Shown here piece after piece: positions 5,697 to 9,251 of a DNA stretch of 64,000 bases. Each line of letters starts with the position of its first letter. Position 1 is the stretch's first letter. Made by a program: the position numbers and the translations under genes. The notes under the pieces are model-generated. The model was not told the DNA's origin. It was given only the letters and a program-made list of their open reading frames with translations, and made no database searches. The DNA is from Eubacteriales bacterium (GTDB lineage: Bacteria; Bacillota; Clostridia; Saccharofermentanales; DTU023): NCBI GenBank assembly GCA_030537525.1, contig JAUNVU010000005.1, positions 1 through 64,000 on the forward strand, given 5' to 3'.

Positions 5697-6701
5697 GTGG
5701 CTATCATTACAGTCTCCAGCGAAGTTGCCGCATATGGCAGAGAGTTTTCTGAACGTCTAGCAGATCGGTATTTTGCCGAATTTATCTATAGAGATGATCT
5801 CGTCGAGCGCTTTATTAAACCGCTCGCCAGCGAACACGAATTATATTTATTAAAGATCAGTCCCAAGCAGTACCTGGCCGAGAGCAGCGCTGGCATCTCC
5901 TTCTATGACTATATATACGGTGCTCTACACGAATTAGCCAGCCGAGCCAATCTCGTCCTCTCCGACTGCGGCGGACAATTCTACCTAGCCAACTTTCCTG
6001 GCGCCACGCATATCCGCTTGATTGCCGATAGAAATTTTCGCAGAGAGCGCTTCAAGCGGCGAAACGAAGAATTGATTTCTCGTGAAAAATACGACAATCT
6101 CACCTACAGAGACCTCGTCTACCCAGCCGCTTCTGACTTTGGCGAGGTCTTCGACCAAGTCGAGAAACTAGAGCGCCGCTTCTATAACACCGTATTTAAG
6201 GGTCAGAGCGAGGCCGAGGCCACCCATTATGATGCCGTCTTAAACAGCGGCAGACTGTCCTTTGAATCGATGTTTAAGTTGGTGGACGAGCTGGTACTCG
6301 AACGACAAATTCAAAAAGAACTAGAAGCCTACCAGAGTGAAGAAGAAACTGGCCAGCTGCGTCAGGCCAAGTACTTTGAGCTTAAAAATGAGAGCGAGCG
6401 AGAATTTGCCAGACTGCTTGACCTCTATCGAATTGAGTGGCGTTATGAGCCAAAGACCTTTCCAATAGATCGGGATATGCAGGGTCGCGTAACCCTGGCC
6501 TTTTCCCCTGATTTCTACCTACCTCGCTTCAAGCTCTTCATCGAGCTAACTACCATGAAGCAAAGCTATGTCAGCATCAAGAAGCAGAAGCTCAAGAAAC
6601 TACAAGAGCTCTACCCCGATGTGCGCTGTAAAATTGTCTATAAGAAGGACTTCGAAGCTCTATTTAAGCGCTTCGAAGCAAGCGGTACTATCTATGATTG
6701 A
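5697..6701 (+). CDS. Cytidylate-kinase-like protein fused to a PD-(D/E)XK-like domain
   Basis: A 334-residue protein starting with GTG, six bases after AGGAGG. Residues 1 to about 190 resemble the cytidylate-kinase-like family (opening ITVSSEVAAYGREFSERLADRY, and a LIADRNFRRERFKRRNE segment like the LID region). The P-loop is not canonical: where kinases have GSGG or GxGKS this protein has AAYGREF. Residues about 230-325 look like a restriction-endonuclease-type fold, with E in SEREFARLL, D272 in SPDFYLP and E283 in FIELTT, but the catalytic lysine position is T285. Domain calls are by eye. The downstream HPRT-like gene overlaps by eight bases, so the two products probably work together. Both look catalytically altered, and a regulatory or binding role is a reasonable inference. 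Confidence 0.6.
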   Translation: MAIITVSSEVAAYGREFSERLADRYFAEFIYRDDLVERFIKPLASEHELYLLKISPKQYLAESSAGISFYDYIYGALHELASRANLVLSDCGGQFYLANFPGATHIRLIADRNFRRERFKRRNEELISREKYDNLTYRDLVYPAASDFGEVFDQVEKLERRFYNTVFKGQSEAEATHYDAVLNSGRLSFESMFKLVDELVLERQIQKELEAYQSEEETGQLRQAKYFELKNESEREFARLLDLYRIEWRYEPKTFPIDRDMQGRVTLAFSPDFYLPRFKLFIELTTMKQSYVSIKKQKLKKLQELYPDVRCKIVYKKDFEALFKRFEASGTIYD

Positions 6702-7230
6702 TGGCAATTATGAAATTCTCTTCTCCCAAGAGTCAATTAGTTTCAGAGTCAGTGAATTAGCTGCAGAAATCACTAGAGACTACGCCAAGCGCGACCTGGT
6801 TTTAGTGGCCATGCTCAAGGGCTCCATCTACTTTATGGCAGATCTCACCAGAGAAATCGACTTGCCCTTCGCCTTCGACCTGATCGGCATTTCTTCACTT
6901 GGCCGTGCTAGTCAAGAAACGGGCATTGTGCGAGTGACCAAGGATCTTGGGCTCGACGTCACGGACAAGGACGTCTTAATTGTTGAAGAAATCGTGCGCT
7001 CGGGCCTGACGACTAATTACCTCGTCCAATATTTGGAAAAACGAGCGCCCCGCAGCATCGAGCTCGTCACCCTGCTCCATAGTCCAGAAGAGCAGCTCAT
7101 TGACTTGCCACTGAAATACACAGGCTTCGAAATCGGCTATGAACGGGTGGTCGGCTACGGTATGGACTACAGAGAGCAGGATAGGGCACTGCCCTTCATC
7201 GCCAAGCTAGATGAATCGCGCTACCTCTAA
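6694..7230 (+). CDS. hpt: Hypoxanthine phosphoribosyltransferase-like protein with altered PRPP loop
   Basis: A 178-residue type I phosphoribosyltransferase with the HPRT layout: LKGSIYF (41-47), the flexible loop SSLGRASQ (67-74), the PRPP motif VLIVEEIVRSGLT (94-106) and the C-terminal VVGYGMDYRE (152-161). In active HPRTs the PRPP motif reads VEDI(I/V)DTG; the Asp that acts as general base is R102 here, and the Asp-Lys pair that holds the purine is H129-S130. The fold is sure; HPRT activity is doubtful. Start chosen at 6694 because the HPRT fold begins there and the codon overlaps the upstream gene. Further upstream codons are open but lie inside that gene. Confidence 0.85.
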   Translation: MIDGNYEILFSQESISFRVSELAAEITRDYAKRDLVLVAMLKGSIYFMADLTREIDLPFAFDLIGISSLGRASQETGIVRVTKDLGLDVTDKDVLIVEEIVRSGLTTNYLVQYLEKRAPRSIELVTLLHSPEEQLIDLPLKYTGFEIGYERVVGYGMDYREQDRALPFIAKLDESRYL

Positions 7231-7354: not shown

Positions 7355-7383
7355 TTGACTATGCACGATTGAAAATTTAAAGT
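7355..7383 (+). promoter_or_regulatory. Promoter of the large structured RNA
   Basis: TTGACT (7355-7360), a 17-base spacer and TAAAGT (7378-7383). The predicted start near 7390 is just before the 5' strand of the closing helix of the RNA, which supports the assignment. Confidence 0.65.
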
Positions 7384-7389
7384 ATAGAC

Positions 7390-8036
7390 AAGCTCCGGGG
7401 AAAGCAATACCCGATAAGCTAATGCACCACGAGAAATCGTGAGAGGCAGCGAAGCTTGACATAAGAATCAGTGATCAACAGAACTAGGGAGTGAGCAAAT
7501 CACCCCGTGGATGAGACAGGCATACCACATGGTTCTAGTGACCAAATCTGGATTAATAGTGAAAGTTCAAGAAAATTTGAATGACAAGGCCAAAAGCCGT
7601 AAGCGAGGTAAGCAAGCAAAATTATAGGTGGTAAGTTCTCCTAACTTAATCACAAAGTACAGCATGTTACCACCAGACGTTTCCCAAATTGTATTTCGAT
7701 TATATATATAGCAAACCTCAAAACGCACTAGGCAGAGATTTCAAAATCAGACGTCAGATGAGTAATGATCGTAAAAATCACGGGATTTGGAAGCTGAAGA
7801 AAGAAGAGCTAAGTTGCAGGTCCACTACATGAACTACGCCACATAGACGGTTTGAGGAAAACGCGAACGAGCAATCGAACGAAGGTGTCCCCAGTAAAAC
7901 GTTAGATGGAAACCGAGAAAATTATTACAGGTTGTAAGTTCGTCTAGAGGATGAAAAAACTCAAAAAGAGTGCAACAGCAGAATGTAAACTTCGCCGGAG
8001 CAAGAAGACCCTCGAGTAATCGAGGGTCTTCTATTT
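7390..8036 (+). ncRNA. Large ornate structured non-coding RNA, about 645 nt (ROOL-like or OLE-like candidate)
   Basis: About 645 bases without a credible ORF, bounded by a promoter and a perfect terminator. The ends pair: GCTCCGG (7392-7398) with CCGGAGC (7995-8001). Next to this AAGTT (7936-7940) pairs with AACTT (7988-7992). Further helices: AAGCT 7416-7420 with AGCTT 7453-7457, enclosing CACGA-GAAA-TCGTG (7428-7441); GGG-A-GTGA/TCACCCC around GCAAA (7487-7506); GTGG/CCAC (7507-7528); TGGT/ACCA (7530-7544); TTCAA/TTGAA (7566-7581); GGTGGTAA/TTACCACC (7627-7674), a perfect 8-bp arm; CGA-GCAA-TCG near 7868; ACTC/GAGT (7959-7971). Loops are A-rich with GNRA types, as in large bacterial RNAs. 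Size, closing helix and a Clostridia host fit ROOL RNA; OLE RNA is similar in length but is normally beside its membrane-partner gene, which is absent. I cannot assign the class by eye. Two minus-strand ORFs here (7232-7462 and 7834-8046) look like chance. Confidence 0.8.
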
Positions 8037-8040
8037 GTTT
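8003..8040 (+). terminator. Terminator of the large RNA
   Basis: AGAAGACCCTCGA (8003-8015) pairs perfectly over 13 bp with TCGAGGGTCTTCT (8020-8032) around a GTAA loop, followed by ATTTGTTT. Confidence 0.9.
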
Positions 8041-8051
8041 AGCCATTTAAT

Positions 8052-9251
8052 TTATTCATCTAATTCGAAAAACTCGAGCAACTGATCCGGACCAGTTTCT
8101 AGCTGTCCTTGTATGAAGTTCTTCTGGCCGCCAGCCTTCACCGTAAATTCTTCTCTTAAACTTGCAAGCAAGTCCCTCAAGTCGTAATCCAGAGAACTAT
8201 CTGGACTACGCAATGCAACTATATTTAGTCTTTCACCATTAACCTGATACAAGAAGACGAAGCGCGGGAAGTCTACCGCCAACTCCTTGGCAAATTCCTT
8301 CTGCTCAGCGGCATTTAGATCACTAGTTTCTAATAGTAAGTAATCTTGCTTGCAGTCCTCAGCTGCTGTTCTGAGCGCAGCAAATTTTTGCTGACGAAGC
8401 TTCCTTTCGAGGGCATACTTCTCCTCGATCAGCTCTGCAATGCGGTTGCTGAGCTGCTCTTTAGATGTTGAGAGCAAGCCGACTAAATCATCGATGATCG
8501 CGCTTTCAGCTTGCGCCATTTTTAGGCTGCGTTCCCCACAGCAAGCATAGATTCTCGTTCCGCCGCGATGTCTTTCGAAGCGACGAATGCGAATCTCGCC
8601 AATCTCTCCAGTATTCTTTAACTGAGTTCCGCAGCAGGCACAGAGATCATAGCCTGGCACCTGTATTAGACGAAGCTCTTCGCCTACTTCCTTCTTCGCG
8701 CGATAATCTAGGCTCACTGCTTCTTCTGGCGTCGGATAGAGGGCCTCAATTTGAATATTTTTCCATACCGCAAGATTAGCCAGACGCTCAATTTCTGCAA
8801 TTTCTTCAGCGCTCAGCTCACCGTTGAAGTCAATGACCATATAATCTTCACTGATGTGGAAGCCGACATTGTCGTATCCATGACGCTCATGGCAGATGCC
8901 TGAGATCAGGTGCTCGCCTGAGTGCTGCTGCATATGGTCGAAGCGACGTTCCCAGTCAATGCTTAGCCTGACCTCGGCACCGACGGGAAAGTCATATTCG
9001 TTCTCACCTGCTTCAATCAGGTGGAGGATAGTCCCGGCACGCTTCTGGCAGTCAACAATGGCATACTGTCTATCTCCAAGAAATAATGTCCCTCTATCCG
9101 CAGGCTGACCGCCACCTTCTGGGTACACGCAAGTATCCTCGAGAATGACGGCCCTTAATTTCGGCGTATAGGGAAATGAGCCCACAATAGTTGTCACAAG
9201 TTCCCGACAGTAGGGGTCCGTATAGATAGTATGTTGAAACAATGTCCTCAT
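8052..9251 (-). CDS. Alanyl-tRNA editing protein, AlaX type with DHHA1 domain
   Basis: A 399-residue free-standing editing protein that removes mischarged amino acids from tRNA-Ala. The N-terminal barrel has YPEGGGQPADRGTL (43-56), the editing site has HSGEH (H110/H114) and the second metal motif is CACCGTQ followed by TGEIG (204-217). AlaRS and AlaX normally have CxxxH there; here the His is Q210. A coiled coil and a DHHA1-type C-terminal domain follow (about 240-399), the long AlaX arrangement. It lies one base after the CPBP gene and is last in the ireB-to-AlaX series, where other Bacillota carry alaS at the front of the cluster. Confidence 0.88.
   Translation of the reverse strand: MRTLFQHTIYTDPYCRELVTTIVGSFPYTPKLRAVILEDTCVYPEGGGQPADRGTLFLGDRQYAIVDCQKRAGTILHLIEAGENEYDFPVGAEVRLSIDWERRFDHMQQHSGEHLISGICHERHGYDNVGFHISEDYMVIDFNGELSAEEIAEIERLANLAVWKNIQIEALYPTPEEAVSLDYRAKKEVGEELRLIQVPGYDLCACCGTQLKNTGEIGEIRIRRFERHRGGTRIYACCGERSLKMAQAESAIIDDLVGLLSTSKEQLSNRIAELIEEKYALERKLRQQKFAALRTAAEDCKQDYLLLETSDLNAAEQKEFAKELAVDFPRFVFLYQVNGERLNIVALRSPDSSLDYDLRDLLASLREEFTVKAGGQKNFIQGQLETGPDQLLEFFELDE

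Follow-up and report, generated by a model that had tools for sequence, protein, structure and literature searches.

The window, that is, the whole stretch of DNA analysed here, comprises positions 1 to 64,000 (forward strand) of contig JAUNVU010000005.1 from an Eubacteriales bacterium (GenBank assembly GCA_030537525.1). It carries a non-coding RNA gene of about 620 nt at 7388-8004 (+), located between an hpt-like and an AlaX-like gene, with the following features:

6694-7230, + strand: hpt, hypoxanthine phosphoribosyltransferase-like gene (Pfam PF00156), the upstream neighbour
7355-7383, + strand: sigma-A-type promoter, TTGACT-N17-TAAAGT, with an equivalent in 21/21 delimited copies
7388-8004, + strand: non-coding RNA gene, 617-nt core, with homologues in 20 genomes and no Rfam match
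7392-7398, + strand: closing helix P1, 5' strand GCUCCGG, 7/7 pairs with 7995-8001
7399-7402, + strand: P1 extension, in which G7399 lies opposite G7994 (invariant G-G mismatch), followed by G7400-C7993, A7401-U7992 and A7402-U7991
7428-7441, + strand: hairpin CACGA-GAAA-UCGUG (GNRA loop), with counterparts in genus g2
7446-7456, + strand: helix P2, 5' strand (GCAGC 7446-7450, GA internal loop 7451-7452, AGCU 7453-7456)
7807-7817, + strand: helix P2, 3' strand (AGCU 7807-7810, AA 7811-7812, GUUGC 7813-7817), from computed fold and comparison
7820-7952, + strand: 3' domain arm, 7820-7834 with 7938-7952, inner stems 7848-7851/7912-7915 and 7852-7857/7889-7894, GNRA hairpin 7869-7876
7995-8001, + strand: closing helix P1, 3' strand CCGGAGC, paired in 21/21 copies
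8003-8032, + strand: intrinsic terminator, 13-bp stem followed by a U-rich tract, also in the sister species
8052-9251, - strand: AlaX-like tRNA-editing protein (PF01411 and PF07973), the downstream neighbour, not always retained

An earlier note, made from the sequence of the window, had described a promoter, a 13-bp terminator, ends that pair over 7 bp and the absence of a protein-coding frame, and all four observations stand. The promoter pattern by itself is at chance level (1 found versus 1.6 expected), but the promoter stands about 7 nt ahead of the RNA in 21/21 delimited copies; the end pairing is exact, and two of its positions vary with compensation. Transcription probably starts near 7390 and ends beyond the terminator. 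The gap between the hpt-like and AlaX-like genes contains no credible coding frame, and a coding gene was rejected for the family as a whole, as the longest sense ORFs of nearly all copies stay inside the shuffled range, and the copies have none in common. The description of a highly structured RNA is likewise borne out by the computed folds, which lie well below shuffled sequences for the window RNA (z -4.6) and for the copy in the sister species (z -7.1; each with 20 shuffles, terminator included). The compact members described below gave z values of -4.6 to -6.4, and one g2 copy (G027), at z -1.1, did not fold significantly better than its shuffles. The 8-bp arm proposed at 7627-7634/7667-7674 is present in the sequence and is specific to the window species: it is not kept in the sister species and is therefore non-diagnostic.

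The window genome holds a single copy of the RNA. By blastn, a second copy was found at the same place in the sister species (G001:C8:134401-135099), where the promoter, closing helix, A-rich loops and terminator are kept in blocks of 71-82% identity and the intergenic remainder is poorly alignable. Of the 94 pairs in the two-sequence consensus, 17 show changes on both sides. Neither blastn nor R1, a 3'-domain model made from just the two sequences of g1 (the genus of the window species and its sister species; g2-g7 are other genera of the same family), gave a match outside the genus, and the region downstream of hpt was therefore inspected across the family. For R1 this negative covers the family, the order and the class (391 class genomes); the model is blind at this distance because the family diverges fast, a difficulty that synteny downstream of hpt overcame. 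Seven g2 species carry a 500-670-nt non-coding unit downstream of hpt, on the opposite strand and with the same closing helix. R2, a covariance model of the 3' domain derived from g2 sequences only, recovered both g1 copies precisely where they were expected, the window RNA with 33.2 bits (E 9e-5 over 185 kb) and the sister copy with 30.1 bits. The recovery of g1 copies by a g2-only model is an independent test of homology.

R2 also led to hpt-flanking matches in g3 and g7 (members of 287-289 and 424-426 nt). A model from g3 only (R3) scored g7 at 187-206 bits and confirmed the g6 copies, which had first been found by their end motif, at 28.1 and 23.5 bits. Run over all 188 genomes of the order, R3 confidently identified members of family f3, one in G184 and a tandem pair in G179; it also gave low-scoring matches in f2 (G066) and f4 (a tandem pair in G042), where inspection revealed the promoter and both end motifs. 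In total, we count 22 copies in 20 genomes of one order, spread over five genera of the window's own family (g1, g2, g3, g6 and g7) and families f2, f3 and f4, which makes all four of the families sampled.

No convincing member emerged outside the order from searches, weak ones, of 391 class genomes (R1 and the exact 15-base end motif), phages, plasmids and viral contigs. In the 391 class genomes the exact 5' motif CTCCAGGGAWTACCA matched four times, in no case (0/4) accompanied by the 3' end motif; viral contigs scanned with two internal motifs and the 5' and 3' end motifs gave chance matches only, and blastn against phages and plasmids gave none. A pattern scan of genome contigs picked up, besides the sister species, four matches in unrelated bacteria. 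Run in genome mode, R2 failed to detect g1 and R3 failed to detect the g1, g6 and g2 loci, and the exact end motif misses g1/g2-type ends; since these tools overlook known members, non-detection in g4, g5 and other orders does not equal absence.

The family has a sharp signature. The delimited copies (21/21) have a TTGAC-N17/18-TATAAT-like promoter about 7 nt ahead of the RNA and a U-rich tract or terminator after its 3' end, and all of them share the closing helix consensus 5' GCUYCRG-G-GA / 3' UC-G-CYGRAGC: seven pairs, of which the two varying positions are both compensated, a G-G mismatch (21/21) and two further invariant pairs. This invariance is partly a selection effect, because copies were delimited, and g6 first found, by the motif; the model-based finds (g1 by R2; g6, g7 and f3 by the g3 model) are free of end-motif selection. 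Between these ends the interiors diverge, and compact and large members are not alignable end to end. RNA length ranges from 251 nt (G184) to 668 nt (G023), the window RNA measuring 617 nt and many members, at 251-430 nt, being far smaller; A makes up 31-47% of bases. The two g6 copies (L229:3210-3561 and L230:2770-3118) share an identical block, GACGATGTTTCGCCGACAGCATTGAATG, inside otherwise diverged interiors.

Compensating core helices were tested in g1 and g2. Across nine g1 and g2 sequences, 95.4% of cells in the 3' domain are paired, versus 86.0% in shuffles and 27-38% with the partner slid, and 12/30 helix pairs changed on both sides; these counts represent few independent events, as the aligned sequences had been fitted to the structure model and the changes fall mostly between the two clades, g1 and g2. 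The outer five pairs of P2 are paired in 45/45 cells of the same nine sequences, with compensated and wobble variants (G-U/G-C/A-U and U-A/C-G/U-G). The GNRA hairpin before P2 forms from differing but self-complementary stems in the window and in most g2 species, where five species carry CCAU-GAAA-AUGG-type stems with GAAA or GUAA loops. Compensatory change was found in the 3' domain, P2 and P1 (g1 and g2). We conclude that the window RNA is a member of a family, missing from Rfam 15, of autonomous structured non-coding RNA genes across one clostridial order, each with its own promoter and terminator, and that the family combines a near-invariant closing helix and compensating core helices with sizes that vary between lineages, from 250 to 670 nt, via different internal arms. 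The earlier suggestion of a large stand-alone structured RNA, possibly of a new class, is in keeping with this result. The window member is best explained as an expanded form of a family that includes members of about 260 nt.

With the Rfam 15 covariance models as reference for known classes, only tRNAs and the SRP RNA scored above threshold in the window, and the RNA stretch itself gave no meaningful match at E up to 10. The search with the ROOL, OLE, GOLLD, HEARO and raiA models that the earlier note had called for was run, and the window RNA matches none of them: ROOL (RF03087) is silent in the window stretch (E<=10) and in the window and sister genomes, OLE in the window, and GOLLD and HEARO in the window and at the tested loci of other genera and families. 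There is no Rfam match to a group II intron or RNase P RNA in the window, and ARAGORN finds no tmRNA (tRNA-like ends, tag frame) there. The idea of a domesticated ROOL or another ornate class in Rfam is accordingly not supported. Separately, weak ROOL-model matches (11-15 bits) occur in six related genomes, all away from the family RNA; five of these (L011, L012, L013, L015 and L016) fall in model region ~343-417 and have no other Rfam match.

The window member shares with ROOL a length of about 600 nt, paired ends, A-richness and many local helices, and with OLE its size (~600 nt), its structure and its occurrence in Gram-positive bacteria. It would be conceivable that copies dock through loops and A-minor contacts into a homo-oligomeric, RNA-only particle, given that ROOL, GOLLD and OLE are likewise large and A-rich, with GNRA loops, closed ends and covariation without strong sequence conservation (PMC12286853). 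However, the family matches none of the ROOL, GOLLD and OLE models, its compact members (251-290 nt) are much smaller than known cage-formers, and a large folded RNA can be monomeric, as raiA illustrates (PMC12286853). Unlike ROOL, the family includes many members of 251-430 nt and is chromosomal, with no phage association seen; no phage genes were present in the surroundings examined, a plain chromosome as the earlier note had it. Unlike OLE, the RNA has no OLE partner gene nearby, as also noted earlier, none being found among the eight neighbouring proteins scanned against Pfam. A ROOL/GOLLD-like cage (PMC12286853), even for the large members, has no direct support and we regard it as unlikely. 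The smtA motif or 'Soda Lake RNA' is comparable as a large clade-restricted non-coding RNA, the function being unknown for both, but it is confined to Thioalkalivibrio (PMC11109978). The family may already have been detected, unnamed, among published candidate lists (e.g. PMC8040213).

The scan of eight nearby proteins against Pfam placed a cytidylate-kinase-like gene, hpt and the AlaX-like editing protein around the window RNA, and the recurrent neighbourhood in the family consists of RuvX, CAAX-protease-like, phosphoesterase, hpt and cytidylate-kinase-like genes. The RNA adjoins hpt in 17/20 genomes across three families; the two genes converge in 15 of these and share a strand in the two g1 species. 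In G001 one phosphoesterase gene lies between RNA and hpt, and in G013 the contig ends at the RNA. Such a position could suit a cis-acting or antisense regulator, in which the convergent RNA would control the 3' end or mRNA of hpt, the more so as the RNA 3' end overlaps the hpt end in G066. Against this, hpt and the RNA share a strand in both g1 species, the G179 and G042 copies are not beside hpt at all, and an antisense RNA has no need of an elaborate conserved fold with closed ends, so that we consider hpt regulation quite improbable. The overlap in G066 is between the RNA (L247:1501-1797) and the convergent hpt frame (1775-2338, - strand), and one terminator may serve both.

Compared with the other hpt-adjoining genera, the RNA is inverted in place in g1 relative to hpt and the other neighbours (L008:2900-3600; window 7385-8036), and in G019 it is still there where alaX was not found. 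G179 (C368) carries two diverged tandem copies away from hpt (L238:1501-1759 and 2045-2313), each with its own promoter, near genes that we read from their sequences as parB-like and AMP-ligase-like. The two tandem copies in G042 (C1, a single-contig genome; L257, reverse strand, 5' motifs at 2192 and 2692; 318 and ~405 nt) lie upstream of a gene read as cytosine-permease-like. Because the RNA is inverted in g1, kept without alaX in G019 and found elsewhere and in tandem in G179 and G042, it is an independent gene; the simplest account of its distribution is vertical descent, a single local inversion and some duplication.

Descent from raiA/ModT was also weighed, namely that the family could be a very divergent form of this RNA in an order that may lack the usual raiA RNA. 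Both are free-standing, driven by sigma-A promoters and found in Clostridia as compact multibranch RNAs, and the compact members approach raiA's 215 nt (PMC11706538, PMC11751092). However, raiA is ~210 nt long and highly conserved, with >25% of nucleotides at 97% (PMC11706538, PMC11751092), whereas the present family varies in both size and sequence, and RF03072 gave no match at E up to 10 in the window stretch and at the g6 and f3 loci, or at E up to 1 in g2, g3 and g7; we therefore hold a raiA origin to be very improbable. Just as hard to credit is a miniature inverted-repeat element with the closing helix as mere terminal repeats, for although the ends are inverted repeats and the unit shows an in-place inversion in g1 and tandem copies in two genomes, the window genome has one copy, tandem copies elsewhere have diverged, the hpt-side position is kept across three families, the promoter always lies just outside the 'repeat' and internal helices compensate.

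The explanation we prefer, at a probability of roughly 0.7, is an autonomous, vertically inherited, trans-acting structured RNA that serves as a ribonucleoprotein scaffold or works in a ribozyme-like manner. That this is a new trans-acting RNA family is very probable; that it acts as the scaffold of a protein complex or by a ribozyme-like mechanism is a slightly less than even proposition, which rests on analogy since neither a protein partner nor a catalytic motif was identified. The analogy is with raiA/ModT (PMC11706538, PMC11751092) and OLE (PMC9723947). The RNA would be made from its sigma-A promoter and, once folded, might act in trans as such a scaffold or machine. In this scheme, the closing helix with its G-G mismatch would clamp and protect the ends and position the multibranch core, and the peripheral arms would be lineage-specific supports.

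To our knowledge, large structured bacterial RNAs of unknown function make up no more than a handful of classes (OLE, ROOL, GOLLD and raiA). The present family would add a further one, with 22 copies in four families, a clear-cut pair of end motifs and sizes graded from 250 to 670 nt. We tentatively propose an order-wide new class of non-coding RNA with a biochemical activity of its own, either catalysis or a dedicated ribonucleoprotein, and a nearly threefold size range around one end-clamped core, of which the window member may be a natural expanded form; the graded sizes would then supply naturally minimal and naturally expanded forms for structural work and deletion experiments.
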